From: Adenophora triphylla var. japonica
Taxonomy: Eukaryota > Streptophyta > Magnoliopsida > Asterales > Campanulaceae
Direction: 5' to 3'
Length of the DNA: 64,000 nucleotides
NCBI GenBank assembly: GCA_022495995.1
Contig: JAFEMH010000339.1
Coordinates: 682,001-746,000 of the forward strand
A model generated the notes under the pieces. It did no database searches. It was not told the DNA's origin and saw only the letters and a list, made by a program, of their open reading frames with translations. Positions 8,641 through 62,640 of the stretch are shown here, piece after piece. A program made the position numbers and the translations under genes. Position 1 is the first letter of the stretch. Every line of letters starts with the position of its first letter.

Positions 8641-10337
8641 TGATGAATGTGCCCCGCCGCGATTTTTCTTTTGAAAATCATTAAAAAATGGGAGTCGCCA
8701 CGCCATTTTTATTTTAAGGGCCAAAACTTTGAAAAATGCCCGAGATTAGAGATTTGGGTTCGGAGGTCACGTTACACTCCGGGAAGAACGTTAGGATTCA
8801 CCCGGAATGCCTCGTAAAACGAGTCTTCCTAATTTGAAACCATTTGTATGTGTGTGTGTGTTTCTTTTTAGTTAAAATAAGTGCAAACTGAGAGAACTAA
8901 AAATTGAGAAATCTTTGTAAGACATTAAACAAGTCCCATGATTCTTGGTATGATTTTAGGGTTGAGTTTTGGTACTCAAAAGACTCCTTGAAGTTGAAAG
9001 TCAATTCTGCCAGAATGAAAAAGACTGTGGACACTTGATTTTAAAATGGATTTAAGAGTTTTAAAAATTCATAATCTGAGGAAAGTCAGAGAATAAAAGT
9101 TGTTCAAAACATATTAAATAAGGTGACTGCAAAATATTTTTATGATTGGAGATGATTTGAGGGACCAAAACCTTCTGGAAATCACAGATGTGAAATCTGG
9201 ATTTCCAGAGACTGCTAAACTGACTTTTGGAAAATAATTTTAAAAAGGGAGTTATACTCACGCAAAAAATAAATTAAAAATATTTCTGGAATCCTATGGA
9301 TGTTGGATACAAAACGTATTTTGTAGTTAACACCAAATTCCAAGTTTTTCTGTGTCCAAAAAATTAGACAATGGACAGTGGTCTTAGAGAAAGGCTACTG
9401 GACAGCAACATTCTCAAGAAGGAAAATGTGATTTTAAAGGGGGTTTTGCATCCATGCTTGTCCCCATTTCCTTAGGCTTTGATTAGTGATCACTAAACAT
9501 ATTTATTGGTGATCTACTATATCAAGCCATCCTTAGGGTACATTAGGACTTAAAGCACTTCATTTGCTTGGGATGGGGGAGATTTAACTTGAAATCAAGA
9601 TTTTATGTATGAAAATTGATTTTAGGTTAAGAAAATGCTTTCAAGTAAGTAAAAACAATTTGGAAGGAATGTTGATCCTTATAGAAGATCATTCATGGAG
9701 ATGAACTTCCATGGAGATCCTCTTGGATCTAGGGCAAGAACAAGTTACATCTTTGAAGTATGAGATGCATGCATGGATGAGGGAGGTTTAAAGTAAGGAG
9801 AAGGAGGGTTTACCAATGGTGGTATCCTATCTTCCTTGTGTTTGTGTTTGAGACTTGAATTTAGTGAGTGTTTGGTGAGTGAGATTTGGGAAAATGATTA
9901 AGAAAAAGGTGGCAATTCAAAGGAATTTCCACTGTTTTCTACAATATTTTCGCCAAGGTGCTGTGTGAGTGAGTTGTTGTTCCTTATTTTTCTGAGACTG
10001 AGGGGCTCTATTTATAGGCCTCTGAAAAATTCGATTCCATCCGCGCGGATATGTATGCTAGCGTGCACTGTTCATTAAATGCTGCTGCAGGCTTTGGACA
10101 AGAGGAATATTTTTTCAAATAATCAACCAGCTGTTGTTTTACAGATTTCTATTTTCGAATTTTTCTCTTTTGTGAGATTCTTTCCCTTGTTTAACTCTAA
10201 ATAGCAATTCCCAACTTACCCTTGCTTTGTTAGAAAAGTTAGGTTTTATTAGAAAAGTTAAGGCTTAGGTTAAGAATGTGAAGGCTTTCGTTAGTTTTCT
10301 AACGGAAATGCTAACAACTCAAATTGGAGCACTTACA
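8641..10337 (-). repeat. E1 3' LTR
   Basis: On the minus strand it starts TGTAAGTGCTCCAATTTGAG and is clearly the same family as the E3 LTR at 32680-34420. It contains a TG microsatellite near 8846-8862 and, near its 3' end, GGCGTGGCGACTCC on the minus strand, which echoes the primer site. No reliable ORF. The left end is taken at TGATGAATG (8641), though 8639 is also possible. Confidence 0.85.
10009..10049 (-). promoter_or_regulatory. E1 LTR promoter: CCGNNCGG palindrome and TATA box
   Basis: TCCGCGCGGA at 10040-10049 lies about 24 bp upstream of CTATAAATAG (minus strand, about 10007-10016). The same palindrome and spacing occur at the E1 P1 promoter and the E3 promoters. Confidence 0.75.
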
Positions 10338-10350
10338 GTAGCCCCTCGGC
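10338..10350 (-). promoter_or_regulatory. E1 polypurine tract
   Basis: On the minus strand GCCGAGGGGCTAC abuts the LTR start TGTAAG. The same tract, GCCGAGGGGCTTC, precedes the E2 3' LTR. Confidence 0.75.
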
Positions 10351-10447
10351 GACGGTGCTTTCGAAGGAAGCGGGGTCGTCGATAAGAGTAAGGCTCCATA
10401 TTTGAAAAGGGGTGACCAAAGTGGTCGGATGGCTGGACCTGGTGATA

Positions 10448-10720: not shown

Positions 10721-10759
10721 GGGTCTTTGACCCTGGAGTGACTATTTTAGGGTGTCAAC

Positions 10760-11050
10760 CTGGTAATGATGGCGTTTTAGGTGCCTCGGACCTTGAAGAT
10801 GGCATTTTAGGTGCCTCGAACCTTGATGATGATGGCATTTCAGGTGCCTCAAACCTTGATGATGGCGTTTTAGGTGCCTCAGACCTGGATGATGGCGTTT
10901 TAGGTGCCTCGGACCTTGAAGATGGTGTTTTAGGTGCCTCAAACCTTGATGATGATGGCATTTTAGGTGCCTCAAACCTTGATGATGGCGTTTTAGGTGC
11001 CTCGAACCTGGAAGATGATGGCGTTTTAGGTGCCTCGAACCTTAAAGATT
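10760..11050. repeat. E1 30/33-bp tandem repeat
   Basis: About nine units of the form ttttaggtgcctcggacctt plus gatgatggc, 30 or 33 bp long. Because the units are multiples of three, frames stay open on both strands; a 176-residue frame at 10738-11268 would read DGVLGASDLE-type decamers. It lies in the 3' region of E1 and has no start context or conservation, so I treat it as a non-coding satellite-like array. Confidence 0.85.
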
Positions 11051-11154
11051 TGGGATTGATGGTCCTTTGGTGGACTTCATTTGAAGGGTCCGGTCTTACG
11101 TTTGCTGTCGGAGAAGGGGATGACCGTTTTGGTCGAGTGGCTGGACCTATGGTA

Positions 11155-11198
11155 GGCTACCTACGTATCCTTAAGAGGAATCAAGCCAATCGTAGTTC
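11155..11198 (-). other. CTACG/CGTAG hairpin, E1 copy 3
   Basis: Third copy of the hairpin, between the two tandem arrays. Confidence 0.7.
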
Positions 11199-11204
11199 GA
11201 AAGC

Positions 11205-11560
11205 TGCTGGGAACGGGATTCCGTTAACTTTCGTTGGAGAAATCGGACTTACGTTTTACTGCCGTTGATGATAATGAGGAAAGAAACGGGATTCCGTTAA
11301 CTTTCGTTGGAGAAATCGGACTTACGTTTTACTGCCGTGAATGAAAATGGGAAAAGAAACGGGATTCCGTTAACTTTCGTTGGAGAGATCGGACTTACGT
11401 TTTACTGTCGTTGATGATAATGAGGAAAGAAATGGGATTCCGTTATCTTTCGCTGGAGAAATCGGACTTACGTTTTACTGTCGTGGATGAAAACGGGGAA
11501 AGAAACGGGATTCCGTTAACTTTCGTTGGAGAAATCGGACTTACGTTTTACTGCCGTGAA
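11205..11560. repeat. E1 about 72-bp tandem repeat
   Basis: Five units of about 72 bp, each with ACGGGATTCCGTTAACTTTC, then GAGAAATCGGACTTACG and TTTACTGCCGT. The inverted pieces ACGGGATTCCGT and GTTAAC make each unit partly palindromic. The array lies immediately upstream of the P1 promoter. Confidence 0.85.
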
Positions 11561-11680: not shown

Positions 11681-11720
11681 TCCGCGCGGATGGGAAAGCA
11701 TCCCAGACAGGTTTAAATAA
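11681..11720 (+). promoter_or_regulatory. E1 P1 promoter: CCGNNCGG palindrome and TATA-like box
   Basis: TCCGCGCGGA (11681-11690) is followed about 23 bp later by TTTAAATAAAGG (11712 on). The P1 start codon is at 11846, leaving a leader of roughly 100 nt. The element's own LTR promoter has the same palindrome and spacing. Confidence 0.75.
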
Positions 11721-12013: not shown

Positions 12014-12691
12014 GTATACTTCGAATTTCTTCATTTCCTTTGTCGATTTTCATTTGAAATTGATTTTTTGTGATTTTTTCCTCTTTTTTTTTTTTTTTTT
12101 TTTTTCTTGGAAATTCGAAAATTATGGTTCTTGGCATTGAAATTGGACTTTGATGATTTGCATGTTGTAATGATTATATGGGTAATCAAAATATGCATTT
12201 TGTTTAAAAAAAGTATGGGCGATTTGCCATATTTTTTTTTGAAATATGAGATGACGAAAATTTGTCCGAATCCGGGACAGACTTTTTTTGTTGCATGTAG
12301 GATTTTTGCAATGAGATGATGCTTCCATGAATGATATGAATGTATGCATGCATGTTTTTTTGTAAAAATATGATTTTTGTGAAAAATGGGACGGATTTTT
12401 GCTTCCGTTGATTGAATGTATGAATGTGAAAAATTGTTTCTGTATGCTATTTTATGAAAAATGGGACGGAGTTTAGCTTCCGTTGACTCAATGTTATTGA
12501 CATGTCTCTTTATGCATGAATGGATGATGAATGGTGATTGCTGAAAAATCTTTTCTTTTGTGCGAGAAAAATGGGGCTGAGTCCATTATATGCCGTTATG
12601 CTGCCGAATTTTTTCAAAACTTTATGTCTATGATCATGTGTATGCTTTTAAATGCAAATGCAATTTTTTTTTCTTTTTCTTTCAATTGCAG
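12014..12691 (+). other. E1 P1 intron 1
   Basis: A T-rich 678-bp intron with donor GTATAC and acceptor TTCAATTGCAG. It holds repeated phrases such as aaaatgggacgga followed by gcttccgttga (twice), and no gene. Intron 1 of the E3 P1 ends in a matching tract (TTTCAATTGCAG). Confidence 0.75.
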
Positions 12692-13122
12692 GGTGGAGAT
12701 CGTTTTGTGACGGAGCAGCTGAATAAGCTGAAGACTCGGGGATCAGTGGAGGCTGTGATCGGCCTGTGGGATCGGCTTCCAGTCTTGGGCAGAGGAGATT
12801 TGATGAGTCTGAGGCAGATCGCCATTGGGACTGGGTTGTATGAGTTCATCGAGTGTCTGAGGGGGTTGCTCAAGTTCCCCAAGAGTAAGGACCTGATTTT
12901 TGCTTTGGCGCAGCACTGGTGGGACGTGACCCACACATTCCATTTCTTCTGGGGCGAGGCTACGGTCACACCTTCCGATTATGCTGCGATCACGGGCCTG
13001 TCCTTTAAAGGATGGAGCATTGAGTGGAGAGATGGTTATAGTGACCGGGAGCTGCAGGACCTTTTGGGCTTTGTCCCCATTCCCAAAAAGGGGATGGGGA
13101 TGGAGTATGCTGTGGTCCACGG
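12692..13122 (+). pseudogene. E1 P1 exon 2, left half
   Basis: Reads GGDRFVTEQLNKLKTRG through the PMD core to EYAVVHG, where E2 is inserted after cacgg (13118-13122). Confidence 0.85.
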
Positions 13123-13371
13123 TGTAAGTACCCAAATCTGGCTCATGCCTTCCGGTTAAATTTCCCGACAATTTCGGTAAGTTTCCCGGTAATTCCCCGG
13201 ACCTTCCTAGTGTTCCGGAAATATTCCGAAACTGTTCCAAAACAATTAAGGGCTGAAGGGGAAGCTTCCTAATTAAGAAACACGTTTTTCTTAATTAGGA
13301 AATGTTCTAGAATTTGCCACCTTGCATGATTCTAGAAACATGCTGAGTCACAAGGGATAATGCCGCACGAC

Positions 13372-13435
13372 TGCATTAGCCAAGGACCTCTAGCCGCACG
13401 GCCTCATTAGCTATTTTCAGAAAGCCTATAAATAG
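13372..13435 (+). promoter_or_regulatory. E2 LTR promoter: paired CCGNNCGG sites and TATA box
   Basis: GCCGCACGAC (13372-13381, one mismatch; GCCGCACGGC in the 3' LTR) and GCCGCACGGC (13393-13402) precede CTATAAATAGAGCC (13427 on) by about 25 bp. Equivalent pairs lie before P1 and P2 of the same element. Confidence 0.8.
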
Positions 13436-13764
13436 AGCCCTCCTCTACCCATTTTACATACACAATATCATCAACCATTACACAATACACTATACTCAAG
13501 CAAATGCTGCGAAGTTAGGAAGCAAAAAGGGTGCCAAGAAGCCTCCTCCTCCTCCTTGAAGATCTAGAAGTTGGTCCTTCCACCTAGCTCCACCCAAAGA
13601 AGAAGAGGCCACCATTGGTAACCTCTCACTCCCTAAACTTTCATCCTAATTGCTCTATATGATTTAATTGCTCATTGCATTTCATATCTTGTTATTATCT
13701 TTGCTTGGGACTTGGCATTCATAGTTAAAGATCATATCTTTATACCCCCTTTCCCCCTTTTACA

Positions 13765-14140
13765 TGCATTAGGCATCCCTTGCCATTAAAGATGTAATCT
13801 TTTGAATCAAAGGTGCATCCTTTGCACCTAAAAACCCTATTTTTACATAAAAATGTCACCTTCATGCATCCTTTGCATATAAAAATCCAATCTTTATGAT
13901 AAAAATGCATCCTTTGCAAATGAAATCCTTTTTCAAGCATCCTTTGCATTAAAGATCATATCTTTATCCTAAATTAGCATCCCTTGCTTCTTAAAAATGC
14001 AATCTTCATGCATCCCTTGCATATTTGAATCCCAATTTCTTCATAAAAATGCATCCTTTGCATAAAAATCATGTTTTTACATTAAAAAAGCATCCTTTGC
14101 AATAAAGATCACTTCTTTAAATCAAAAAAGCATCCTTTGC
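13765..14140 (+). repeat. E2 LTR array of GCATCCTTTGCA units
   Basis: A dozen or more imperfect units of about 25-35 bp, each with a near-palindromic TGCATCCYTTGCA core and an A-rich spacer. It lies downstream of the TATA box, so it would be in the transcribed leader. The same array is in the 3' LTR (about 29845-30215). Confidence 0.8.
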
Positions 14141-14862
14141 AATCCAAAAATGTCATCTTTTCACTAAAAATGTCATTTTTACATGCATTCCCCCATGTCC
14201 CCATTAGCAACCTTGGAACGGACCGGTGTAAAAGATCCTATCTTTACATCGTTTCTTCCATAAAAGGTTTCATAATTTCTTTAGAAAGGGACAACCTTGA
14301 ACCCTATATCTCTAATTATCGCTTAAGACGAGTATGAAGCATCTATATGAGCTCGACCGTCTTAAAGCGTAGGATTGATGGGCTAAGGACCCTCCTTTTC
14401 TAAAGAACCTCATCTTTGACTATAAAGAGAGTCATTCTCTCGATCACGCAAGTCCCGAGGTTAAAAATGCAATGATCACAAGTCCAAGATGAGGACGGGA
14501 TCAAAATCCCGAATACATAAAATCCAAGAAATCCCGAGCGACAACCAATAAATGGTTTGTACGTCCGGAAGACAACTTGGGACATTCCCCCCCCCTTATT
14601 TTCAAACACATGCACACAAGAAAGCACGCAAGCAAGCACGGTTAATGAAATCTTGGGAGACTTGCTCCGGCAAGGCACCTTGGGTGAACGACGATCCGTT
14701 CTTCCCAAGGGGTAACTTAACCTCCGAACCCATAAAACCTTTTTTTTCAAAGTTTTGAGGTAATCAAAATGGCGTGGCGACTCCGTTTTTCAAATTAAAC
14801 CGGATGTCTTCAAACTCGCGTGAATTTCCAATACACAAAATTTTGGGCACACATTCACAGTT

Positions 14863-24797: not shown

Positions 24798-24876
24798 TTT
24801 TATTCAGAAAATAACCAGTCCAGACAGAACTGTGAGCCGCACGGCCTCATTTGCCCTCAGGTCCATGCCGCACGGC
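24798..24876 (-). promoter_or_regulatory. E2 P2 promoter: paired CCGNNCGG sites and TATA-like box
   Basis: GCCGCACGGC at 24836-24845 and at 24867-24876, then a TGAATAAAAGC TATA-like box (minus strand, about 24797-24807). This matches the two-site layout of the E2 LTR. Confidence 0.75.
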
Positions 24877-27952: not shown

Positions 27953-28023
27953 TTTTAAATAATCTGGAAAAATTAATCTTCTAGCCGTACGGCTTCTTTT
28001 TCCTCCCTCTCATGCCGGGCGGC
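27953..28023 (-). promoter_or_regulatory. E2 P1 promoter: paired CCGNNCGG sites and TATA-like box
   Basis: GCCGTACGGC (27984-27993) and GCCGGGCGGC (28014-28023) lie upstream of TTATTTAAAATC (minus strand, about 27952-27963), spacing about 21 bp. The start codon follows at 27839. Confidence 0.75.
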
Positions 28024-28234
28024 CTCATTCGCTCTGAGCAGAAATTACAATTTTGCCCCTGGACTTTCCACTTGGGCCTACAATTCCCGTTATCCTTTAA
28101 CTAAGATAACATCCTTTTCAGAAGATATCCCTTATCGCTTAAGTAATTAAGATTTCTTCCCAGTCGCCTCCGTTAATTCCGTTATAACGGGATAACGCTA
28201 GGTGACAACCTCCGAATTGTCGAAATCCGAACTT

Positions 28235-28576
28235 TTGCTACCTCTATCACGAATAGTGAAGTATGCTCAAGTCTTCTAAACTTAAGCTACCTCTTTCACG
28301 AATAGTGAAGTATGCTCAAGTTATCTAAACTTTAGCTACCTCTATCACAGATAGTGACGTACGCTCAAGTTATCCAAACTTTAGCTACCTCTATCACAGA
28401 TAGTGACGTACGCTCAAGTTCTTCCTAACTTTAGCTACCTCTATCTCCTCGATAGTGAAGTATGCTTCAGTTTTCCAAACTTTAGCTACCTCTATCTCCT
28501 CGATAGTGAAGTATGCTTCAGTTTTCTCAACTTCAGCTACCTCTATCACAGATAGTGACGTAAGCTCTAGTTTCTT
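28235..28576. repeat. E2 about 50-bp tandem repeat
   Basis: About seven units with TTAGCTACCTCTATCACAG, then ATAGTGA(A/C)GTA(T/C)GCTC. Each unit has an internal inverted piece (CTATCnnnGATAG). It lies between P1 and the 3' LTR. Confidence 0.85.
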
Positions 28577-28578
28577 CA

Positions 28579-29193: not shown

Positions 29194-30918
29194 TGTAAGT
29201 ACCCAAATCTGACTCATGCCTTCCGGTTAAATTTCCCAACAATTTCGGTAAGTTTCCCGGTAATTCCCCGGACCTTCCTAGTGTTCCGGAAATATTCCGA
29301 AACTGTTCCAAAATAATTAAGGGCTGAAGGGGAAGCTTCCTAATTAAGAAACACGTTTTTCTTAATTAGGAAATGTTCTAGAATTTGTCACCTTGCATGA
29401 TTCTAGAAACATGCTGAGTCACAAGGGATAATGCCGCACGGCTGCATTAGCCAAGGACCTCTAGCCGCACGGCCTCATTAGCTATTTTCAGAAAGCCTAT
29501 AAATAGAGCCCTCCTCTACCCATTTTACATACACAATATCATCAACCATTACACAAAATACTATACTCAAGCAAATGCTGCGAAGTTAGGAAGCAAAAAG
29601 GGTGCCAAGAAGCCTCCTCCCTCCTCCTTGAAGATCTAGAAGTTGGTCCTTCCACCTAGCTCCACCCAAAGAAGAAGAGGCCACCATTGGTAACCTCTCA
29701 CTCCCTAAACTTGCATCCTAATTGCTCTATATGATTTAATTGCTCATTGCATTTCATATCTTGTTATTATCTTTGCTTGGGACTTGACATTCATAGTTAA
29801 AGATCATATCTTTATACCCCCTTTCCCCCTTTTACATGCATTAGGCATCCCTTGCCATTAAAGATGTAATCTTTTGAATCAAAGGTGCATCCTTTGCACC
29901 TAAAAACCCTATTTTTACATAAAAATGCCACCTTCATGCATCCTTTGCATATAAAAATCCAATCTTTATGATAAAAATGCATCCTTTGCAAATGAAATCA
30001 TTTTTCAAGCATCCTTTGCATTAAAGATCATATCTTTATCCTAAATTAGCATCCCTTGCTTCTTAAAAATGCAATCTTCATGCATCCCTTGCATATTTGA
30101 ATCCCAATTTCTTCATAAAAATACATCCTTTGCATAAAAATCATGTTTTTACATTAAAAAGGCATCCTTTGCAATAAAGATCACTTCTTTAAATCAAAAA
30201 AGCATCCTTTGCAATCCAAAAATGTCATCTGTTCACTAAAAATGTCATTTTTACATGCATTCCCCCATGTCCCCATTAGCAACCTTGGAACGGACCGGTG
30301 TAAAAGATCCTATCTTTACATCGTTTCTTCCATAAAAGGTTTCATAATTTCTTTAGAAAGGGACAACCTTGAACCCTATATCTCCAATTATCGCTTAAGA
30401 CGAGTATGAAGCATCTATATGAGCTCGACCGTCTTAAAGCATAGGATTGATGGGCTAAGGACCCTCCTTTTCTAAAGAACCTCATCTTTGACTATAAAGA
30501 GAGTCATTCTCTCGATCACGCAAGTCCCGAGGTTAAAATGCAATGATCACAAGTCCAAGATGAGGACGGGATCAAAATCCCGAATACATAAAATCCAAGA
30601 AATCCCGAGCGACAACCAATAAATGGTTTGTACGTCCGAAAGACAACTTGGGACATTCCCCCCCCCCTTATTTTCAAACACATGCACACAAGAAAGCACG
30701 GTTAATGAAATCTTGGGAGACTCGCTCCGGCAAGGCACCTTGGGTGAACGACGATCCGTTCTTCCCAAGGGGTAACTTAACCTCCGAACCCATAAAACCT
30801 TTTTTTCAAAGTTTTGAGGTAATCAAAATGGCGTGGCGACTCCGTTTTTCAAATTAAACCGGATGTCTTCAAACTCGCGTGAATTTCCAATACACAAAAT
30901 TTTGGGCCCACATTCACA
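29194..30918 (+). repeat. E2 3' LTR
   Basis: A 1725-bp copy of 13123-14859, followed by TSD cacgg. Promoter palindromes GCCGCACGGC are at 29443-29452 and 29464-29473. Confidence 0.93.
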
Positions 30919-30923
30919 CACGG

Positions 30924-31200: not shown

Positions 31201-31282
31201 GTATAAGCTTCTGCTTTTTCTTTTCCTTAAGCACGCGTTGTTTCTTTCCGTACTTAATTGATGTAATTTTTACCTTTCGCAG

Positions 31283-32679: not shown

Positions 32680-34420
32680 TGTAAGTGCTCCAATTTGAGT
32701 TGTTAGTATTTTCGTTAGAAAATTAACGAAAGTTTTAACATTTCTAACAATTCCTAACATTTCTAACCAAGCAAGGGTAGATTAGGGATTGCCATTTCAA
32801 GATAAACCAAGAAAAAGAATCAAAAAAGCAAAAGAAATAGTCAAAAACCAAAAATAGAAGCTGCTGGAACAAAAACTGGCTGTCTAATTTGAATTTAAAA
32901 AAAAAAATTCCTTGTGTCCAAAGCCTGGAGCTGCATTAAATGAACAGTGCACGCTTCTGGTCTTGTCCGCGCGGATGAAAAAGGAAATTTCAGAGGGCTA
33001 TAAATTGAGGCCTTCAGTCACAGAAAAAAAAAAAAAGAACACATTTCACAACTGCACCTTGGCGAAAATAGGGAGAAAACAGTGAGAATTCTCTAGAATT
33101 GTCACCTTTTTCTCTAAATTATTTTCCCAAATCCCACTCACTCTCAAATTCAAACACTCACACATTCAAGCTTCATACACAAACACAAGGAAGATAGGTA
33201 TAACCTCCCTCTCCTTACCCTAAATCTCTCTCATCCATGCATGCATTTTCAAACTCCAAAATGTAGTTTGCTCATCTTCTTGCCCTAGATCCAAGAAGAT
33301 CACCATGGAAGTTCATCTCCATGGTTGATCTTCTACAAGGATCAACATTCTCTTCAAAGTGTTCTTACTTACTTGCAAATGCATTTTCAAAACCCTAAAA
33401 ACCATTTTCATACATCAAATCTTCATTTTCAAGGATAAAATCCCCCTTCCCAAGCAAATGAAATGCTTAAGTCCTAATGTACCCCAAGGATGGTTTGATA
33501 TAGTTGATTCACCACTAAAATGTCAAGGGATCACTAATCAAAACCTAGGGAAATGGGGACAAGCATGGATGCAAAACCCCCCTTAAAATCATGTTTTTCT
33601 TCTTAAGAAAGTTGCTGTCCAGTAGCAATTTTCTAAGACCTCTGTCCATGGTCTAATTTTTTTGGACACAGATAAACTTGGAATTTGGTATTGACTACAA
33701 AACACTTTTTGTAGCCAACATTCAGATATTTCCAGACATATTTTTATTTCATTTTTTGCGTTAGTAAAACTCCTCTTTTCAAATTTTCTTTTAAAGGTCA
33801 GTTCCTCAGTCTCTGGAAATCCAGATTTCACATCTGAGATTTCTAGAAGGTTTTGGTCCACCAAATCAACTCCAAATGGGAAAGTTCCTTTAAAGAAACC
33901 TTATTTAAGGTGTTTTGAACAACTTTCATTCTCGGACTTTCCCCAGATTCTGGAGTTTTGAAGCCCTTAAGTCCATTTCAAAGTCAAGTGTCCACTGCCT
34001 TTTTCATTCTGGCAGAAATGTTTTTCAACTTCAAAAAATCCTTTGAGTCTCAAAACTCAACCCAAAAATCATACCAAAAATCATGGGATCTGTCCAAAGT
34101 CTAATAAAGAAATCCCAATTTTTACTTTTCTCAGTTTCAATTTATCTTGGCCAAAGTAATACACACACACACACACACACACACACAAATGGTTTCTATG
34201 TTTGGAAGACTCGTTTTACGAGGCATTTCGGGTGAACACTAACGTTCTTCCCGGCGTGTAACGTGACCTCCGAACCCAAATCTCTCATTTCGGGCATTTT
34301 TCAAAGTTTTGGCCCTTAAAACAAAAATGGCGTGGCGACTCCGTTTTTCCGGTTTTATTTGGTTTTCAAAGAAACGAAAAATCGAATTTTTTCCGCGAAT
34401 TGGAATTCAACATCGTTACA
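32680..34420 (+). repeat. E3 5' LTR
   Basis: 1741 bp, TGTAAGTGCTCC...CATCGTTACA, same family as 8641-10337 in inverse orientation. A CA microsatellite is at about 34161-34188 and the primer-like TGGCGTGGCGACTCCG at 34328. No coding content. Confidence 0.92.
32966..33006 (+). promoter_or_regulatory. E3 LTR promoter: CCGNNCGG palindrome and TATA box
   Basis: TCCGCGCGGA (32966-32975) lies 23 bp upstream of CTATAAATTGAGG (32998 on). Confidence 0.78.
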
Positions 34421-42263: not shown

Positions 42264-43753
42264 TGAAATTACCCGGGATCCGGCTCGCGCGCGGAGGAGG
42301 ACCCGAGGCATCTCGCATTCGTCGCTTTTCGGGAATGTTCGCCCGGATCCGAGAGGCAGCGCGTTCGCGCCCCGGCATCTGGCTTTATTCCGCTTCAGCG
42401 ATTAGTTGGAGGTGTCTCGCCGTTTGTTTTCGCATTTGTAGAGTCGCCACGCCGTTTTTATTAAGCCCAAAATATTGAAAAAGGGCATCAGTTTAAAGAT
42501 AATTTTAAACTGTTTTTGTGTGATGAGATTTTGAGTTCGGAGGTCAGATGACTCCTCGGGAAGAGAATATTAGAATATTAGAGCTCACCCGAGTCGCCTC
42601 GTAAAACGAGTCTTTCGGATACCCCTAATATCCTTTAAATGTTGTGTGTGTGTGTGTGTGCTTTTAAAAATACATGCTGTATCGGATGTCTACATTTTAT
42701 ACTATGTATGGAAATGTATTGAAATAGTAACGGAAGGAAGCCTTACCAATGTTGGTTTGTGTCTGTCTTCCGCAGGGGAATAGTGTTTGAGGTCGGAGTA
42801 GCATTCCGGTATGGATCGGGATTGCTTCGGGAGGGGCCGGTTGTCTGCGGACAGAGTTTCGGCGTGAGTTGATGTTGCAGGCTGCGTTCGGGCAGAGGTT
42901 CGGCGTGCGTGAGGATCGTCGGGATCACTCGGGCAGAGGTTCGGCGTGCGTGGAGGTGGCAGGCTGCGTTCGGGCAGAGTTTCGGCGTGGTTTGGGATCG
43001 CGAGTTTGACTCGGAAAGAGCCGGGACACCGTGGAAAGACCAGGCAAGGCCTCGGAGTACCACGAGGGGCCTCAGAGTACCTCGAGAGTGCCTCGGGGCA
43101 GCGCGGGAGCATCGCGGGAGCGCTCGGGGAGGCTTCGGAGCACCACGAGGGGACTCGGAAGGCCTCGAAAGGATCCGAAAGGGGCCGGGAATGCCTCAGA
43201 AGGACTTAGAGGGGAAGCCAGAAGGCCTAGGGAGGAAGAGAGAAGTGGGAGATGTGTGAAAATGAGGAGGGGAGCCCTCTATTTATAGTGCCGAGATTTG
43301 GTGCAAAGAGGTCCGTACGGACCTCCACAGTAATCCAGACTTTTGGTTTTCCTCGATTTGAGGGAATCTGTGATGATGGTGAATATTTTGAAATCATGAT
43401 GTCCCCTGTGCAATAAGGTCCGTACGGACCAACTTGACATGCAAAGAGGTCCGTACGGACCAACTCTGCAGGGGGGTAATCATTTTTCCCGGGATTTGAG
43501 GGAATATTGTGGACTTTAAGAGGATTCGGTAATTATTAAAGCAAAGAGGACCGTACGGACCATTATTGCTTTTCCAATTTTCTGAAAATTCCCAAAAGGT
43601 CCTTTTGTCCCTTTTATCCCGAGAAAGGCTCCTCCCTTGGTTTGGTGGGGGTTTTGAGAGGGTTTTGAGTGCCGGAGGTCGTCGAGGCTGCGTTGATGAG
43701 TCCGCGGTGTTTCCCGTGTGCTTGAAAGGGGTGATCCAGTTGGGGTACTTACA
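42264..43753 (-). repeat. E4 3' LTR (left)
   Basis: On the minus strand TGTAAGTACCCCAACTGGATC...GGTAATTTCA. It has four copies of the GGTCCGTACGGACC palindrome, a TG microsatellite (42642-42660) and, near its 3' end, TGGCGTGGCGACTCTAC. Open frames such as 42909-43259 come from GC-rich text and are not conserved proteins. Confidence 0.92.
43277..43561 (-). promoter_or_regulatory. E4 LTR promoter: four GGTCCGTACGGACC palindromes and TATA box
   Basis: Palindromes at 43310-43323, 43417-43430, 43448-43461 and 43548-43561 (one base changed in the last), upstream on the minus strand of ACTATAAATAGAGG (about 43278-43291). The right LTR has all four at 56799, 56907, 56938 and 57039. Confidence 0.8.
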
Positions 43754-44330
43754 ATCCCTCGACGACGTCACTTATGAAAGAAGTGGGGTCGCCGATAAGA
43801 TAAGGGTCCTAATCTGGATCGCGTCTTTGGGAGATAAAGTGGCCGGGAGGTCAGTGTGAGGACGTGGTGGTGTCCTATTGTGTGACCGTTTAGGTCGGTA
43901 GGCTGGACCCTGTGATAGGATTCCTACGTATCCATGGCGTGAATCAAGCCTGGTCGTAGTTCGGGTGTGGGGTGAGTGTTTTGTGAATGCGGTCGCGGTG
44001 GTGCCCTGTAGTGTAGTGTGACCGCCGAGGTCAGTGGTAAGGACGTGGTGGTGTCTTGGGTGACCGCATGGGTCGATGGCTGGACCCTGTGATAGGATTC
44101 CTACGTATCCCTGGCGGGAATCAAGCCTGGTCGTAGTTCAGAGGTCGTGAAATCGTGAATGCGGGCGTGGTGGTGCCCTGAAGTGTTGTGTGACCGCCGA
44201 GGTCAGTGGTAAGGACGTGGTGGTGTCCTGAAATGTGGTGACCGCCGAGGTCAATTGTGAGGACGTGGTGGTGTCCTGGGATGGAAATTTTACGATTTTC
44301 CTAATCGGGTGGTTTAAGGCCTTCCGGGCC
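43754..44330. repeat. E4 3' region with CTACG/CGTAG hairpins and repeated phrases
   Basis: The purine tract abuts 43753. Repeats of GAGGACGTGGTGGTGTCCT and GTGACCGCCGAGGTCA alternate, and two hairpin copies lie at 43919-43962 and 44099-44139. No gene. Confidence 0.8.
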
Positions 44331-44399
44331 GGAGATAGTGATTTGGGAGGTTTATACGGTCTTCGGCGAGTGGTTTAAAGCCTTAGAGTGGGGGATAGT

Positions 44400-44820
44400 G
44401 TGAGGACTTGAATCGTCTTCTGAATGTGGTTGTGCCACGCGTGAGGACTTTGAATCGTCTTCTGGCGGCGGTGGGTGCCACGCGGGAGGACTTTGAATCG
44501 TCTTCTGGCGGCGGTTGGTGCCACGCGGGAGGACTTTGAATCGTCTTCTGGCGGCGGTTGGTGCCACGCGGGAGGACTTTGAATCGTCTTCTGGCGGCGG
44601 TTGGTGCCACGCGGGAGGACTTTGAATCGTCTTACGGCGGCGGTTGGTGCCACGCGGGAGGACTTTGAATCGTCTTACGGCGGCGGTTGGTGCCACGACG
44701 GAGGACTTTGAATCGTCTTACGGCGGCGGTTGGTGCCACGGCGGGAGGACTTTGAATCGTCTTCTGGCGGCGGTTGGTGCCACGCGGGAGGACTTTGAAT
44801 CGTCTTCTGGCGGCGGTGGT
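44400..44820. repeat. E4 43-bp tandem repeat
   Basis: About ten units with GAGGACTTTGAATCGTCTTC, then TGGCGGCGGTTGGTGCCACG. Open frames on either strand here are artefacts of the repeat. Confidence 0.9.
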
Positions 44821-45400
44821 GGAGGCATGGCTGCCTTGAGTTTCGAGAGGTTTAGATGTCTCGTGCTTGAAATGTTGGGGAGAAGGTTGGACTTACGATG
44901 GCTGCCGGTGCTTGCGTTGCCGTTGAAGTGGGCAATGATGATGGCCGGTGATTGCTTCACCATTTGGCATTTTGGAGGCGCTTCGTGCCTTGGGATTTGT
45001 ATTCGGAGGTGTTGGCTCCTTCTTGTGCTTGTTTTGCCGTTGAGTGGACAAAGTTCGGGCTTACATTGACGGCCGGTGCTGGGGATATGTAGTCTTGTAT
45101 GACTTCCTTTTGACTTGTTGGGGAGGAGCTCGGGCTTACTTTGATGGCCGGTGCTTGCGTTGCCGTTGAAGTGGGCGAGGTTCGAGCTTACACTGACTGC
45201 CGGTGCTTGAATTGCTGGGGATGCGTGACCTTGTAGGGGCCTTTTCTGCTGAGAAGATGACTTCGGACCTCTTTTAAGGGCCGGTGGTTGCGTTGCCGTT
45301 GAGCATTTTGGAGGCGTCTCGTGCCTTGATATTCGTGCTGGGAGGTGTTGGCTCCTTCTTGAATTGCCGTTGAGTGGGCGAGGACCGGTCTTACACTGAC
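44821..45400. other. E4 degenerate repeat and spacer region
   Basis: Scattered copies of the neighbouring 52-bp motif (GCGTTGCCGTTGAAGTGGGC, CGGGCTTAC) mixed with unique text. No gene supported. Confidence 0.7.
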
Positions 45401-45955
45401 GCCCGGTGCTTGCGTTGCCGTTGAAGTGGGCGAGGTCCGGGCTTACGTTGACGGCCGGTGGTTGAATTGCCGTTGAAGTGGGCGAGGCTCGGGCTTACGT
45501 TGACGGCCGGTGCTTGAATTGCCGTTGAAGTGGGCGAGGCTCGGGCTTACGTTGACGGCCGGTGGTTGAATTGCCGTTGAAGTGGGCGAGGCTCGGGCTT
45601 ACACTGACTGCCGGTGGTTGAATTGCCGTTGAAGTGGGCGAGGCTCGGGCTTACACCGGCTAGGTGGTTGAATTGCCGTTGAAGTGGGCGAGGCTCGGGC
45701 TTACACTGACTGCCGGTGGTTGAATTGCCGTTGAAGTGGGCGAGGCTCGAGCTTACGTTGACGGCCGGTGGTTGAATTGCCGTTGAAGTGGGCGAGGCTC
45801 GGGCTTACGTTGACGGCCGGTGCTTGAATTGCCGTTGATGTGGGCGAGGCTCGGGCTTACACTGACTGCCGGTGGTTGAATTGCCGTTGAAGTGGGCGAG
45901 GACCGGTCTTACATTGACGGCCGGTGGTTGAATTGCCGTTGGAGTGGGCGAGGGA
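45400..45955. repeat. E4 52-bp tandem repeat
   Basis: About eleven units of TTGAATTGCCGTTGAAGTGG, GCGAGGCTCGGGCTTACGTT, GACGGCCGGTGG. The array runs directly into the broken P1 exon 3 and appears to have replaced the upstream part of P1. Confidence 0.9.
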
Positions 45956-47036: not shown

Positions 47037-47108
47037 GGTCCGTACAGACATACTTAGCATGCAAAGTGGTCCGTACGGACCAACCTTGCTTTTGGGAAGG
47101 AGATAAAT
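47037..47108 (+). promoter_or_regulatory. E4 P2 promoter: two GGTCCGTACGGACC sites and TATA-like box
   Basis: GGTCCGTACAGACA (47037-47050, imperfect) and GGTCCGTACGGACC (47068-47081), then AGATAAAT at 47101, spacing about 20 bp. This is the palindrome of the E4 LTR, not the version used by E1-E3. Confidence 0.78.
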
Positions 47109-47199
47109 GCTTGCCAGTGTCTGGTTCTTCCCCATTTCCCCATTTGCAGCCATTTTCGAGCTTTCTTCCCCATTTTCTCTAGGAACCTCCATTTTTGCC

Positions 47200-48716
47200 A
47201 TGGATTCTTCGTACGTTCCTAGAATTTTGCCGAGGCTTTCGCAGGAGAGGCAAGCACACTTCCTTGAGCAGCTGAAAACGTGGATGCGGTGCCGTATGAG
47301 GCATCAGAGACGGGCTTTCGAGGTAAGGTTTCGTCTTTGCTCGATTTGGTCTTTTAAGGAGTTGGTTCTGATTGGGATTTGTTGCGGGCTGCCGCGAAGT
47401 TACAGGATGTTAGGAGGCATGTGTCTTGTTTCTCCTACAATGAAATGGTGCCCACTTTTGAGGATTTTCGGGCTTTGATGGGGGGACCAGGAGGTGGAGG
47501 CCATCTCGCTTCCTTTGATTGGTGGTCTTTGCGGTGAGCGTGAAGCTTGCGGGATTTCTTCGTACTTCGTTGGAAGAAGTGCGGGGCATGATCCTTGATT
47601 CGGGTCATATTGACATTTACGAGCCGCGGATCGGTTCATGGTTGATGATGAGAGTGATGTCTCTTGGGACGCATTTGCCTTGTGCGTGATGGCGACGCTC
47701 TTCATGGTCAGCTCCCTTGGCATTTGCGATGGCGCTTTGCTAGATGTGGTAGGGAAGCTGCAGAGTGGAGAGGATATTGTCCCGTTGGTCTTTGGGGAGA
47801 CTTTTCATGGTATCGACCGTCGCGGCGGGGATCGTTTCATGAGAGGGGAAGCCCCGCTTTGCTCACCTTGTGGGCTGCGAGAGAGACTTCGGGCCATGCC
47901 GAGGCTCAGACGTCGTTTAGTCCGTGGTCATTTGCTCGCCGACCTCTTGTGTTGGATATGGATCGATCCGCTGGGAGAGATGGATGGTACGGCTTGGTAT
48001 GCATCGAATCATTTGGTGGGTTCCGCTGGAGGATTGAGACTAGGAGGATTTTGCGGGAAGGGTCCTACGTTGTCGAGTTCCGGGTTTGTCTTGGTCCTCC
48101 TTCTATATTCCGTCGCTTGTTTCCGGCGGTTTGGGATGAAGCGAGGAGCCTTTGTTGAGGTGGGATGATCTTGCTGCTGCGGAGGTAGTTCCTCTTCGTA
48201 TGGCGGCTTCGGGTGCCTTCTTGTATTTTACGAGGGTATGGAAGTATTCCGCTTTCCCTCTGTGGTACTCCTTAGACGTCGGGGAGTGTCGTATTGACGA
48301 CTCACTACGGCTTTGGTATGAGCGGCGTGTTGGGCGATCCCAAGTGGTCTTGGAGAGCGGCGTGTAGCGATTACGGGACCCGGTTGCCGTAGCGGCTATT
48401 GCCTTAGGAGTGCCGAAGCACAGTCGACCCTTTGGATGTGACGGGAGACACTTTGTTTGACTACGAGACTAGAGTTGACCGGCGACGGGGAGAGGTCCTC
48501 TTTTACGGACTCGCGGGGAGGAGATCCGAGCCGAAGCACGGGCGAATGAAGCCACGAGAGCTCTTGGATTATTTGACTCTACGGGGAGGACCCCTAATCT
48601 CGGGCGAGAGACGCAGAGTTGGTTCACGTGGAGCGAAAGAAGACTTGCCGGGGACGAGGGAAGAAAGGAAAGAATGGCGAGGGGACAAGCGCAGATGGCG
48701 CGGAATGACCTCCTAG
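47200..48716 (+). pseudogene. E4 P2: PMD-like/DUF7745-like gene, broken
   Basis: Starts MDSSYVPRILPRLSQERQAH, then the core is scattered over frames: RRHVSCFSYNEMVPTFEDFR, DVSWDAFALCVMATLFMVSS, GICDGALLDVVGKLQ, IVPLVFGETFHGIDR. It aligns along its length with E3 P2 (57499-59001). Frames change near 47340, 47490, 47850 and later, with extra decay after 48000. The C-terminus is basic, as in other P2 copies. Not expressible as one protein. Confidence 0.82.
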
Positions 48717-55767: not shown

Positions 55768-57247
55768 CGAAATTACCGGGATCAGGCTCGCGCGCGAGGA
55801 GGCCGAGGCATCTCGCATTCGTCGCTTTTCGGGAATGTTAGCCCGGATCCGAGAGGCAGCGCGTTCGCGCCCCGGCATCTGGCTTTATTCCGCTTCAGCG
55901 ATTAGTTGGAGGTGTCTCGCCGTTTGTTTTCGCATTTGTAGAGTCGCCACGCCGTTTTTATTAAGCCCAAAACAATGAAAAAGGGCATCAGTTTAAAGAT
56001 AATTTTAAACTGTTTTTGTGTGATGAGATTTTGAGTTCGGAGGTCAGATGACTCCTCGGGAAGAGAATATTAGAATATTAGAGCTCACCCGAGTCGCCTC
56101 GTAAAACGAGTCTTTCGGATACCCCTAATATCCTTTAAATGTTATGTGTGTGTGTGTGTGCTTTTAAAAATGCATGCTGTATCGGATGTCTACATTTTAT
56201 ACTATGTATGGAAATGTATTGAAATAGTAACGGAAGGAAGCCTTACCAATGTTGGTTTGTGTCTGTCTTCCGCAGGGGAATAGTGTTTGAGGTCGGAGTA
56301 GCGTTCCGGTATGGATCGGGATTGCTTCGGGAGGGGCCGGTTGTCTGCGGACAGAGTTTCGGCGTGAGTTGATGTTGCAGGCTGCGTTCGGGCAGAGGTT
56401 CGGCGTGCGTGGGGATCGTCGGGATCACTCGGGCAGAGGTTCGGCGTGCGTTGAGGTGGCAGGCTGCGTTCGGGCAGAGTTTCGGCGTGGTTTGGGATCG
56501 CCGGTTTGACTCGGAAAGAGCCGGGACACCGTGGAAAGACCAGGCAAGGCCTCGGAGTACCACGAGGGGCCTCAGAGTACCTCGAGAGTGCCTCGGGGCA
56601 GCGCGGGAGCGTCGCAGGAGAGCTCGGGAAGGCTTCGGAGCACCACGAGGGGACTCGAAAGGATCCGAAAGGGCCGGGAATGCCTCGGAAGGACTTAGAG
56701 GGGAAGCCAGAAGGCCTAGGGAGGAAGAGAGAAGTGGGAGATGTGTGAAAATGAGGAGGGGGAGCCCTCTATTTATAGTGCCAGATTTGGTGCAAAGAGG
56801 TCCGTACGGACCTCCACAGTAATCCGAGACTTTTGGTTTTCCTCGATTTGAGGGAATCTGTGATGATGGTGAATATTTTGAAATCATGATGTCCCCTGTG
56901 CAATAAGGTCCGTACGGACCAAGTTGACATGCAAAGAGGTCCGTACGGACCAACTCTGCCCGGGGAGGTAATCATTTTCCCTGGATTTGAGGGAATATTG
57001 TGGACTTTAAGAGGATTCAGTAATTATTAAAGCAAAGAGGTCCGTACGGACCATTATTGCTTTTCCAATTTTCTGAAAATTCCCAAAAGGTCCTTTTGTC
57101 CCTTTTTATCCCAGAAAGGCTCCTCCCTTGGTTTGGCTGGGGGTTTTGAGAGGGTTTTGAGTGCCAGAGGTCGTCGAGACTGCGTTGATGAGTCTGCGGT
57201 GTTTCCCGTGTGCTTGAAAGGGGGTGATCCAGATTGGGGTACTTACA
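55768..57247 (-). repeat. E4 5' LTR (right)
   Basis: A copy of 42264-43753 with few differences; its terminal CA has become CG on the element strand. TSD gtagg follows at 57248. Confidence 0.92.
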
Positions 57248-59090: not shown

Positions 59091-59134
59091 CAAAATTAAA
59101 GGACAGTGTCAGAAAGCTGTCCTATCCGCGCGGA
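59091..59134 (-). promoter_or_regulatory. E3 P2 promoter: CCGNNCGG palindrome and TATA-like box
   Basis: TCCGCGCGGA (59125-59134), then CTTTAATTTTG (minus strand, about 59091-59101), spacing about 24 bp. Same palindrome as the E3 LTR. Confidence 0.7.
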
Positions 59135-59442: not shown

Positions 59443-61453
59443 TCAGTCAGAATCCTCGGTGGCCGGTGCTTTCCCCCGACCCCTCTTGCGGCTCGGGCCC
59501 GCCTCCTCGGTAGCCATGAATGTCTCGGGCTTAGAATCATCGTCCTCGTCTCCGGAAGAAGGCTCGTCAGGACCAACCGGCACGCTCTGATACGGCAAAC
59601 CAAGATCTGCTAAGAAGTCATATCCGAAGGTGAATGCGTCGGACTCCTAGACGTGTGAAGAAGACCCACCATGATGCCAGACATGCCCCTGCCCGTACGG
59701 ATCCCCGAGAATGACGTGGTCCGAAGCGGCACCTGGCCCAGGATCTATGAGAGGAGAAAGAGGAGTCTCAGAAGAACGTTCAGAAGGCTCAGGGGAAGTC
59801 TCCCGCTCGACAGGCGCCGGCTGTGCTCGCCTCGCTCTAGCCTGAGGGGCTCCACAAGCCACCATCCTCCTGATGAATCTCTTAGCCCCGATCACCTGCT
59901 TCGTCAGCTTCTCCACGACGACCTCCGGAAACTGCACGGAAGCAAAAGTGTCAGAAATAGTTGAGACGAAAAATGATGACAGGAAAGAAAGGAAAAGACA
60001 GAAGCAAAAAAAAAAAGGGGTGGGAAGGAGAAGCCGTACCTTCATACCCGGACGAGGCTGAAAAGCTCGTGGAAGCCGCTCAGGCTGAGGGATCTGCACC
60101 CTCAATCAGACCCCATCCTAGACATATGAAAAGTCCATCCGCGGGTACCGTACGATCCCTACCCCCTCTCTCTCAAGGACCTGGGCCATCCTCAACCTCC
60201 TCAAGATAAATACCGGATACTGCTCAATCGCCACGAATGCCGAGAAGTGCTGGCCACCGCGGTAATCGCCCCAGGTCTCCGACCTCTCGCTCGGATGCAT
60301 CATGTCGGTGGGAGGCTCCACTGGAGCCATCAAAGGCGAGTTCACGCCATGCTGACGCGTCACTCTCTCTCCCAAATAATACAAGTCGCAAGTCAAGCCC
60401 CTCAAAATCCTCCGCTGCACGGTCCATGTCTCAGCACCCTTCAGCTGCTCTACATCGAAGCGCTCCCAGGGATAAAATATCATCCTCTCATCTGTCTCAG
60501 CCCTCGTCAAAGGCAGGCACTCCCTGTACTTAAGGGTCGTGCGCCCCTTAGAACCTATCTTCTCCCGGGCATACTTGGACCAGGAGAGCATGGCCGGATA
60601 AGCCCCGATGTACTCCGCCGGCTGCCGCCACATCGTGACGTGAAAGAACCTCGAGCCCATACACCGAAAGGGAAAAATCCCATCAATCCGGTGCAAAAAA
60701 AAAAAAAGAGGAATACGAAAAGAGAAAGCAAAAGAAAGCTTGTACCTCCGGAGGAAACTCGAAGCATGTCAAAGAGGCGCGGCCTTCCGGCTATATCGAT
60801 CCAAGGCAAAATAGAGCTCTGCCGGCCACTGCCTCTCCCAAGAGACCTCCCGGCCATCTCCACATCCTCCAAACTCCTCAGCAAAGCAAACATCGCCGTC
60901 CCCTCGGCGTGTCCAAAAAGTGTGCTCGAAAAGGCAAACCACAAGAAAGCCCTGGCAACCTGCACCGCACCCACTCTCTCGTCCCCAGCCTTGTAATTCC
61001 CGATGGTCTCCACGATCTTTCCGTAGACCACGGCATACTCCATCTCCATCCCCTTTTTGGGAATGGGGGTAAAGCCCAGAAGCTCCTGCAGGTCCCGATC
61101 ACTGTAGCCGTCTCTCCACTCAATGCTCCGTCCTTTAAAGGACAGACCAGTAATCGCAGCGTAATCGGAGGGTGTAACCGTGGCCTCCCCCCCCAGAAAA
61201 AATGGAATGTGTGGGTAGCGTCCCACCAATGATGTGCCAAAGCAAAAATCAGACCCTTGCTCTTGGAGAACTTGACCAGCCCCCTCAGGCACTCGATAAA
61301 GTCATACAGCCCGGTCCCAATGACGATCTGTCTCGGACTCATCAAAGTTCCTCGGCCCAAGACTGGAAGCCGGTCCCACAGGTCAACCACAGACTCCACT
61401 GATCCTCGAGTCTTCATTTTGTTCAGCTGCTGCGTCACGAAGCGATCTCCACC
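59443..61453 (-). pseudogene. E3 P1: plant-mobile-domain gene, exons 2-4, decayed
   Basis: Exon 2 is 61453-60746 (acceptor TTGCAG), exon 3 about 60668-60040 and exon 4 59931-59443; exon 1 lies beyond E5. Close to E1 P1: THTFHFFWG, WRDGYSDRDLQELLGF, MWRQPAEYIGAYPAMLSWS. Lesions: one extra base in a run of eight G (about 61192) and a compensating loss near 60855, the exon 3 acceptor AG destroyed (about 60668), one base missing soon after, TAG after DFSYV (about 60119) and TAG after SSSHV (59649). The tail is acidic (SGDEDDDSKPE). Not functional, unlike P2 next to it. Confidence 0.85.
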
Positions 61454-61601
61454 CTGCAATTGAAAAAAAAAAAGAGTCAAAAAAAAAATTTGCATTAAAA
61501 AAAAATTGCATTCAAAAAATTAGCATTCAAAAAAAATTGCATTAAAAAAAAAAGAAGAACATACACATGCATCATAGACATAAAATTTTGAAAAAAAAAA
61601 T
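61454..61601 (-). other. E3 P1 intron 1, proximal part
   Basis: A- or T-rich repeats (AAAAAATTGCATT-type phrases) up to the E5 insertion. No gene. Confidence 0.75.
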
Positions 61602-62640
61602 TGTTAGTACCCGGCCCGAAAAAAAGCATTTTTAATGTCTGGCTCGGTTTAATTAATGAGAAACCCTAATAATCCCTCAAACCCTTCATCCGTACCTGCG
61701 CCGTCATTGTTGGCGTGGAAGGTACGCCAGATCGAAGTGCCGATCGGCCCTTTACCCGTGGTATGGCCGATCGACCCTTTTTTATAGTGCCGATCGACCC
61801 TTTAACCCTAGTGCCGATCGACCCTTCAGTCGGCCCAGCCCAGATACCGAAGCACTATAAATAAGTGTGCCCGGCTCCCCATATACACACACAATTCATT
61901 CGGGAGAAGCGAGATTACACTTGCTTTACCCGTATTTCTTCCTACTCTCTTCGAATCGCCCTAGATTCGACCCCAAAGTCTTGCTACAATTGGTAAGACT
62001 CTTTTTAATATTTTTGTTCCCTATTATTATTGTCTTATTATATTTGCATGCTTATTATATTTTAATTGTTCCTTTATGCTAGATTTAGGACTGTTTTAAT
62101 ATATTTAAATATGCAATAGCCGAGGATGATCTAAGGTTTCGCCCAAGAAACCTAATGGATCTAGGAACTATTTCTTACCTTCCACCTTAGTTATAATTAT
62201 CCCATGATCAACAATCCCCCAAGGATGAACGTTGATTAGTGCACCTTCCGAGGGCCTAACTCAAAGGTTCTAGGGTGTGATCATCAATTAATTCTTTCTC
62301 TCCCCTCCTCCTTATGCATGATCCCGTTTCTTCTATCTATTCCTGTAAACACCGCACACAACCAACACCCCACATGCTAGAAAGACCGATTCGTCGGGCA
62401 ATAGGAGTGATAACGTTTCTTCTTCTGTTGTAACTTGACCCCCGAACCCAATTAACTGTTTAGCCTTTTTTCAAAGCTTTGGGCTATATCAAAGTGGCGT
62501 GGCGACTCTCGAAATTAAACTAATATTTTAATATGATTTAAAGCGAGTGTCACTAAATTAATATCCCATTTCGGTCCGACTTCCATAATTATTTATTTCA
62601 AACCTCCGAATGCGCGTTGCATCGGGACGGGGTATTCACA
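61602..62640 (+). repeat. E5 5' LTR
   Basis: 1039 bp, TGTTAGTACCCGGCCC...GGTATTCACA. Like the other LTRs it contains a CGTTTCTTCTTCTG..AACTTGACCCCCGAACCC block and AGTGGCGTGGCGACTCTCG (62492 on). Confidence 0.88.
61739..61862 (+). promoter_or_regulatory. E5 LTR promoter: four GCCGATCGRC sites and TATA box
   Basis: GCCGATCGGC at 61739-61748 and GCCGATCGAC at 61766, 61789 and 61813, then CTATAAATAAG at 61854. The first is a perfect CCG-NN-CGG palindrome; the others have one changed base. Confidence 0.75.

Follow-up and report, generated by a model that had tools for sequence, protein, structure and literature searches.

A family-specific palindrome shared by the long terminal repeat and antisense gene promoters of nested Tat-type retrotransposons may be a promoter operator

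How might a plant retrotransposon that carries extra genes in antisense orientation coordinate these genes with its own genomic RNA? A stretch of 64,000 nucleotides of the Adenophora triphylla var. japonica genome (contig JAFEMH010000339.1, positions 682,001 to 746,000; hereafter the window) raises this question. The window is filled with nested Tat-type Ty3/gypsy retrotransposons, E2 lying within E1 and E4 within E3 as judged from where their pieces lie, and two antisense genes, P1 (PMD, PF10536) and P2 (DUF7745, PF24924), sit between pol and the 3′ long terminal repeat (LTR). A preliminary description of this DNA had noted one palindrome, CCG-NN-CGG (CCGNNCGG), in both the sense LTR promoters and the antisense P1 and P2 promoters, and we confirm its presence in both. 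We propose that these sites are promoter operators and that the factor binding them is symmetric, most probably a PMD-superfamily protein encoded by the element itself, and would tune genomic and antisense transcription together; judging from sequence, we consider the chances of this reading to be evenly balanced.

The palindrome CCGNNCGG occurs 26 times in the window, compared with a mean of 8.27 ± 2.67 and a maximum of 17 in 100 dinucleotide shuffles (0/100 reach 26), which bears out the excess expected in the preliminary description. The coordinates given there are correct and refer to the first base of each flanked form. Sites are present at all the positions named, with the qualification that the distal E4 P2 site (47040, CCGTACAG) is degenerate, as is the one at 13363 (CCGCACGA). 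Seventeen of the 26 sites fall within promoter windows totalling 3,799 of the 64,000 bp (binomial p 2.6e-15), the widths of which (150 bp from TATA boxes; from gene starts, 300 bp for P2 and 1,000 bp for P1) were chosen with the sites already known. With windows drawn in this way, CCG-N2-CGG ranks first for promoter enrichment among 448 palindromes with three-base arms. Of the nine sites beyond the promoter windows, five still lie in LTRs: 43451, 43551, 56941 and 57042 in those of E4, farther out on the upstream side, and 61740 in that of a fifth element, E5. The other four, at 747, 15830, 53923 and 59693, have no promoter place. One of the 17, at 27749, is inside a P1 window yet away from the promoter pair. 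The palindrome is thus infrequent outside promoters within the window, and the concern that it might be as frequent elsewhere in the elements mostly falls away.

The distance from the LTR sites to the TATA box is nearly constant. The upstream placement proposed earlier stands, but the range of 20-31 bp tightens to 24 or 25 nt. Exactly this gap separates CCGNNCGG from six of the 13 TATAAAT words in the window, namely those of the LTR promoters of E1-E4 (p 5e-16 against a background of 0.0008 per position). The effective number is three or four, since the E2 and E4 LTR pairs are copies and E1 and E3 are related. Four of four LTRs from elsewhere (C2317, C1917, E2b and E4b) have the same gap, so that it is found in 10/10 measured E-type LTRs with an intact proximal site (E1, E2 twice, E3, E4 twice and these four). 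A set of 25 internal promoters, 20 of them from the P2 genes of related elements, has its highest AT content per 8-mer, 0.92, at gap 26, with 0.90 at gap 24.

We then asked how well the sites are conserved among copies, with counts that are not independent because the copies read are best-scoring, young and related. In the E3 superfamily, TCCGCGCGGA is intact in 31/31 P2 promoters (the window copy, 10 of 80 listed E3-like matches and 20 of 86 listed matches to P0001, a relative from another source), and columns 21-40 upstream average 0.51 and columns 3-10 downstream 0.67. For E4 P2, of which 14 of 40 listed matches were read, both CCGTACGG sites are intact in 12/14 (31 bp apart in 11 and 30 bp in one) and the proximal site in 14/14. 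Each of eight E2 LTRs, among them the window's own L001 and L005, has its two sites separated by 31 bp; in 4/8, one of the two sites carries a single changed base. Pairs 31 bp apart are found in the E2 LTR, E2 P2, E4 LTR (43420/43451) and E4 P2, pairs 30 bp apart in E2 P1 and the L077 LTR, and pairs 31 or 33 bp apart in 6/20 E3-superfamily P2 promoters. A GC dinucleotide lies eight bases outside the core in 16/19 sites of E1-E4 relatives against a background of 0.09; of this outer GC, only the C is invariant across the 31 E3-superfamily P2 promoters.

Every intact core holds at least two CpGs in a short symmetric form, as would be expected if the sites were methylation or hairpin signals (paired CG/CHG targets or cruciform palindromes) and not protein operators. 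However, a palindrome of 8-14 bp is short for a cruciform, the family-specific arms would be irrelevant to such signals, and conserved non-palindromic flanking letters and a fixed TATA gap also argue against them, making this explanation extremely improbable.

An operator read by a family-specific factor should look alike in the LTR and internal promoters of one family. E1 and E3, the LTRs of which are about 81% identical, are not independent families and were grouped, leaving the groups E1/E3, E2, E4 and F6 (a further family described below). Beyond the four CG letters, LTR-to-internal similarity is 0.84 within and 0.31 between groups with two flanking bases, and 0.63 and 0.32 with ten; the true LTR-internal pairing is the best of 24 permutations. 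Dropped before this comparison were the degenerate sites 13363 and 47040, the E4 5′ LTR and E2 5′ LTR, L041 3857, 6652 and 6671, and all of E5, E2b and E4b; the L074 coordinate is one base off, which lowers the within-family value slightly. The claim that arms are family-specific and match between LTR and internal sites is therefore upheld. Agreement of flank and centre holds for the arms but fails for the centres of E2 P1, TA and GG against CA in the E2 LTR, and agreement in copy number holds for E2 (pairs of 31, 31 and 30 bp in LTR, P2 and P1) but not for E4, with four LTR sites and two in P2. Other family members mostly keep matched sites, so the worry that their LTR and internal palindromes would be mismatched largely recedes: C2317 has a single site in both LTR and P2, and C1917 carries pairs, 31 bp apart in the LTR, where one site has a single base changed, and 33 bp apart in P2. 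The C2317 P1 site, CCGCGG, is two bases short and is a counter-example.

Such agreement could also arise by descent only, if LTR and antisense promoters had been copied from one ancestral cassette by recombination or strand switching, with no coevolving reader. Consistent with this, BLAST of 300-bp stretches around the sites aligns the pair region of the LTR with that of P2 at 85% likeness over 55 bp in E4 and at 73% over 64 columns in E2, stretches that equal the length of the site pairs, and within-family likeness extends to the ten flanking bases given above. The C1917 LTR (C1917:133200-134400) also holds a second operator pair, 31 bp apart, downstream of the promoter and antisense, in the P2 direction (L112 924-962). 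Its 53 bp are nearly identical to the P2 promoters of the sister copies L097/L102, so operator cassettes can be copied inside elements, which keeps descent only alive as an explanation. On the other hand, the LTR/internal likeness is confined to 13-20 bp in E1 and E3 and to 17-36 bp in F6, and a 10-mer with three CpGs, invariant in 31/31 P2 promoters amid variable flanks, suggests selection together with the rigid TATA gap, though the copies are young and related. We regard descent only as improbable.

The most demanding test, which the shared site passes, comes from the F6 family, where another palindrome stands at the same promoters. F6 comprises the top DUF7745 matches of the genome (at least 118 matches listed, 30 loci fetched, one cluster), and its P2 is 30-36% identical to E2 and E3 P2. 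Universality of CCGNNCGG can be rejected, since it was not found in 28/30 F6 P2 loci, with one stray site in each of the other two. F6 instead carries TCTCG-NN-CGAGA (TCTCGNNCGAGA) at the LTR, at P1 (a pair, 19 bp) and at P2 (a pair, 19 bp). This palindrome was first met by reading promoters; a blind scan then looked for any palindromes with four- and five-base arms and gaps of 0-6 present at least three times. In L042 the sole five-base-arm word returned was TCTCG-NN-CGAGA, at 2799 (LTR), 3925 and 3944 (P1) and 6748 (P2). The scan did not return it from L041 at that strictness because several L041 sites have a changed base; with up to one mismatch, L041 matches at 2715, 3857, 3876 and 6671, the same places as in L042. 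With up to two mismatches, the two copies have 6 and 7 places, whereas random sequence averages 2.9 and 2.5, with maxima of 9 and 7, and as random sequence reaches similar counts, the F6 evidence consists of position and perfect copies. A palindromic CGNNCG site is present in 27/30 F6 P2 promoters and the 19-bp pair in 17/30. With a different palindrome at the same three promoters, the common denominator is CG-NN-CG with family-specific arms. The F6 operator TCTCGCGCGAGA (L042 2799, 3925, 3944 and 6748, in reverse complement coordinates) resembles the vertebrate promoter palindrome TCTCGCGAGA, with two middle bases added, probably by coincidence.

The F6 result bears on whether a transcription factor of the host, or a small set of paralogues, reads the palindrome and is exploited in all element promoters, with P1 and P2 doing something else. 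CCG-NN-CGG is common to all E families and, with the outer GC, could be read by one host factor. LTR sites are also kept where accessory genes were not found. The P1, P2, gag and pol of the window have no match in the E5 pieces read (61603-64000 and C339:746001-752169), and in E4b, an E4 derivative (C2190:164000-173500; L075, L076, L041), P2 and pol matches were not found and P1 is still there. E4b was a candidate case of covariation in the centre dinucleotide, but a search for its P1 promoter did not identify one. Nested in E4b is the solo LTR of an E2 relative, E2b, with operators GCCGGGCGGC and GCCGGATGGC. E5 itself is a short element with LTR starts about 8 kb apart and four GCCGATCG sites in its LTR, and it may depend on a factor supplied by a different family. 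Against a host reader, F6 in the same genome has TCTCG arms at the same three promoters and the arms differ consistently between families; the motif as a written word was not found in the literature text searched, which says little on known factors. Several operator words with family-specific arms in one genome favour element-encoded readers over one host factor, and a host factor appears to us rather unlikely.

Are P1 and P2 plausible readers? P0001 and two F6 P2 proteins pass the PMD cut-off and E3 P2 matches PMD below it. Since the PMD model is matched by P2 relatives as well, both genes look like members of a single superfamily. Purifying selection acts on P2, with a dN/dS (nonsynonymous to synonymous substitution rate ratio) of 0.17 across nine intact F6 genes among L009-L038 (36 pairs). 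A first look with E3 P2 gave 69,738 candidate places in the genome, and of the 80 E3-like copies with the best scores, 46 have no stop in the match region. Searching the genome with PF10536 gave 149 matches of 57-389 bits, most of which outscore E2 P1 (77 bits) and so are mainly other PMD groups. A homologous-protein search with P2 returned two relatives. TRP28 (PF04195) is absent from the P1 and P2 proteins and from nine further long open reading frames (ORFs) of the window, where 21 ORFs were listed. DUF1985, the domain of VANC-type proteins (see below), has no match in seven P1/P2 proteins at E-values up to 10, which return only DUF7745, PMD and one chance match.

From the sites, their positions, their conservation and their agreement within families, all of which are seen directly, we infer binding, a dimer, the identity of the factor and the sign of regulation. 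The earlier interpretation, a coevolving operator with one reader, is thereby supported in part. The operators would belong to the promoter module of Tat-type Ty3/gypsy elements, and a symmetric, probably dimeric protein would bind the CG-NN-CG-centred palindrome through its family-specific arms. Sites often come in pairs with a spacing of either 19 bp or 30-33 bp; the latter, about three helical turns, would put a pair on one face of the helix. In the E families a site 24-25 nt from the LTR TATA would be near enough to contact the basal machinery or to keep the stretch unsilenced; a dimeric regulator acting close to the promoter would require such a symmetric site, present in sense and antisense promoters and at a rigid LTR TATA distance. 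The reader would most likely be one of the element's own antisense proteins, P1 or P2, which would promote its own expression while activating the element or countering its silencing. With the site in the LTR and both antisense promoters, one factor would set genomic RNA and accessory gene expression together, and the family-specific sequence of the site suggests that one family-specific regulator switches the whole element. That P1 or P2 is the reader, with activation or anti-silencing as the output, is to our mind about an even call, and self-repression instead of activation is possible.

Besides the shared core and the longer LTR-to-internal likeness discussed above, several observations weigh against this proposal. 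E5, counted as a fitting family in the preliminary description, is an exception: its TATA lies 108 nt from the perfect site and about 34 nt from the closest degenerate one, and with P1 and P2 not found in the pieces read it cannot test LTR-internal agreement. The F6 LTR palindrome is about 150 nt from TATA and lacks the 24-25 nt gap, and in both long F6 copies GCCGNNCGGC is outside the LTR, about 80 bp from the 3′ LTR start and apart from the F6 operators (L041 3012, L042 4899). The word most like TATAAATA lies 56-57 nt off in 7/25 internal promoters; most others match TATAAATA at 5/8 letters near gap 25, with ties elsewhere. Having only four family groups, the permutation test cannot go below 1/24. 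A search of the PDB by sequence gave 0 matches for P2 and, for P1, only antibody fragments at E 0.6-1, and the P2 structure model is useless (mean pLDDT, the predicted local confidence score, of 32.3; five-row alignment). These searches thus offer no DNA-binding fold for P1 or P2.

Table 1. Operators, LTRs and antisense genes of the window (positions in the 64,000-nucleotide stretch)
Feature	Position	Strand	Details
E1 LTR operator	10041..10048	-	TCCGCGCGGA; 24 nt before TATAAA; TATA begins 10016, minus strand
E1 P1 promoter operator	11682..11689	+	TCCGCGCGGA
E2 5′ LTR distal operator	13363..13370	+	degenerate CCGCACGA; 31 bp from proximal one
E2 5′ LTR proximal operator	13394..13401	+	GCCGCACGGC; 25 nt before TATAAA 13427
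E2 P2 gene-proximal operator	24837..24844	-	GCCGTGCGGC
E2 P2 distal operator	24868..24875	-	31 bp from proximal
E2 P1 proximal operator	27985..27992	-	GCCGTACGGC
E2 P1 distal operator	28015..28022	-	GCCGCCCGGC; 30 bp from proximal
E2 3′ LTR distal operator	29434..29441	+	
E2 3′ LTR proximal operator	29465..29472	+	25 nt before TATAAA 29498
E3 LTR operator	32967..32974	+	TCCGCGCGGA; 24 nt before TATAAA 32999
E3 P2 promoter operator	59126..59133	-	TCCGCGCGGA
E4 3′ LTR, four operators	43313..43558	-	CCGTACGG at 43313, 43420, 43451, 43551; GGT/ACC arms, one arm altered at 43551; 43313 is 25 nt before TATAAA
E4 5′ LTR, four operators	56802..57049	-	56802, 56910, 56941, 57042; 56802 is 24 nt before TATAAA
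E4 P2 operator pair	47040..47078	+	47040 (degenerate CCGTACAG) and 47071, 31 bp apart
E5 LTR array	61740..61821	+	GCCGATCGGC at 61740; GCCGATCGA at 61767, 61790, 61814; TATA 61856
E2 LTRs	13123-14859 and 29194-30918		98% alike
E4 LTRs	42265-43753 and 55769-57247		
E1 P1 pieces	12670-13122 and 30920-31915		
E2 P2	23209..24799	-	DUF7745-like antisense gene, two reading-frame pieces
E2 P1	25614..27122	-	antisense PMD (PF10536) gene, two pieces
E3 P2	57499..59001	-	open DUF7745/PMD-superfamily antisense gene, 500 aa from in-frame ATG at 59001
E3 P1	60118..61519	-	PMD; overlapping frame pieces
E4 P2 remnant	47179..48709	+	DUF7745-like; frameshifts and stops

The assignment of these elements to the Tat lineage follows from their layout, with reverse transcriptase, RNase H and an extra RNase H ahead of integrase between long LTRs (LTR pairs in E2 and E4). 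In the E3 pol (38005-41319), RVT_1, RT_RNaseH, RVT_3 and Integrase_H2C2 are matched in this order. Antisense PMD ORFs between pol and the 3′ LTR, as in Tat elements with antisense PMD, are matched by Pfam in E2 and E3, and tblastn finds P1 relatives in the E4 copies L077/L078 and the F6 copies L041/L042. The promoter side of E3 P1 appears to be cut by E5. Tandem repeats at 10729-11558, 28225-28715, 43847-44821, 45358-45953 and 63389-63985, within or close to the region that separates LTR from antisense genes, resemble those described for Retand.

In the portions of the literature available, no molecular function is given for the antisense accessory genes of giant plant retrotransposons and only a partial one for PMD proteins. 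An operator in sense and antisense promoters makes a concrete target: which protein binds it, and does the LTR open? If P1 or P2 does read the site, this would explain why these genes are kept and how one genome can hold thousands of related elements under separate regulation, and would suggest what host PMD proteins such as MAIN may descend from. A shared LTR/antisense operator is not reported in the titles and abstract openings of the papers listed on the motif, on DUF7745 or on LTR promoter palindromes with accessory proteins (subscription journals and preprints mostly excluded).

Among known systems, HBZ of HTLV-1 and the deltaretroviruses acts on the sense LTR promoter and works with host factors. 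It belongs to an animal retrovirus, and we know of no homology between HBZ and P1 or P2. The likeness is that of an antisense product with a nuclear regulatory role (as cited in PMC11963269). Closer in layout are Retand and Grande, in which antisense genes lie between pol and the 3′ LTR, with their own promoter in Grande and a guessed regulatory role, and for which the sections available mention no motif shared by LTR and antisense promoters (PMC11963269, PMC7264820). The usual domain described there is TRP28, in contrast to PMD and DUF7745 here, and PMD in Gypsy elements is already in print, as the available part of PMC9289625 indicates. The PMD proteins MAIN, MAIL1 and PP7L are likewise tied to a promoter motif, DOWN (PMC7156037, PMC9899485), although direct recognition is left undecided in the accessible text and the motif (CATGCAGTTT in MORC1) is unrelated in sequence. 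In its one written form DOWN has 0 exact and nine one-mismatch places in the window, none in promoter windows, and we rejected it as the shared site.

The closest working model is, by analogy, the anti-silencing protein VANC of the VANDAL (MULE) transposons of Arabidopsis. According to the parts of the reports available, an element-encoded family-specific protein is matched to a short family-specific motif in the element's own non-coding DNA, and motif and protein diverge together (PMC5735166, PMC10398659). The motif described here is likewise family-specific and lies in the element's own non-coding DNA. The systems differ in that VANDALs are DNA transposons with one-direction tandem-repeat motifs (YAGTATTAY), and not, in those same parts, palindromes at a fixed TATA distance in sense and antisense promoters, and in that binding has been shown for VANC, whereas the sites here are known from their letters. 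With this model in mind we tentatively suggest, with somewhat less than even confidence, that the antisense PMD-superfamily proteins recognise the family-specific CG-NN-CG palindromes in the LTR and in their own promoters. They would thereby form a self-contained, family-orthogonal and positively autoregulated switch, either activating or anti-silencing, in coevolution with its operators, and would be the retrotransposon counterpart of VANC.

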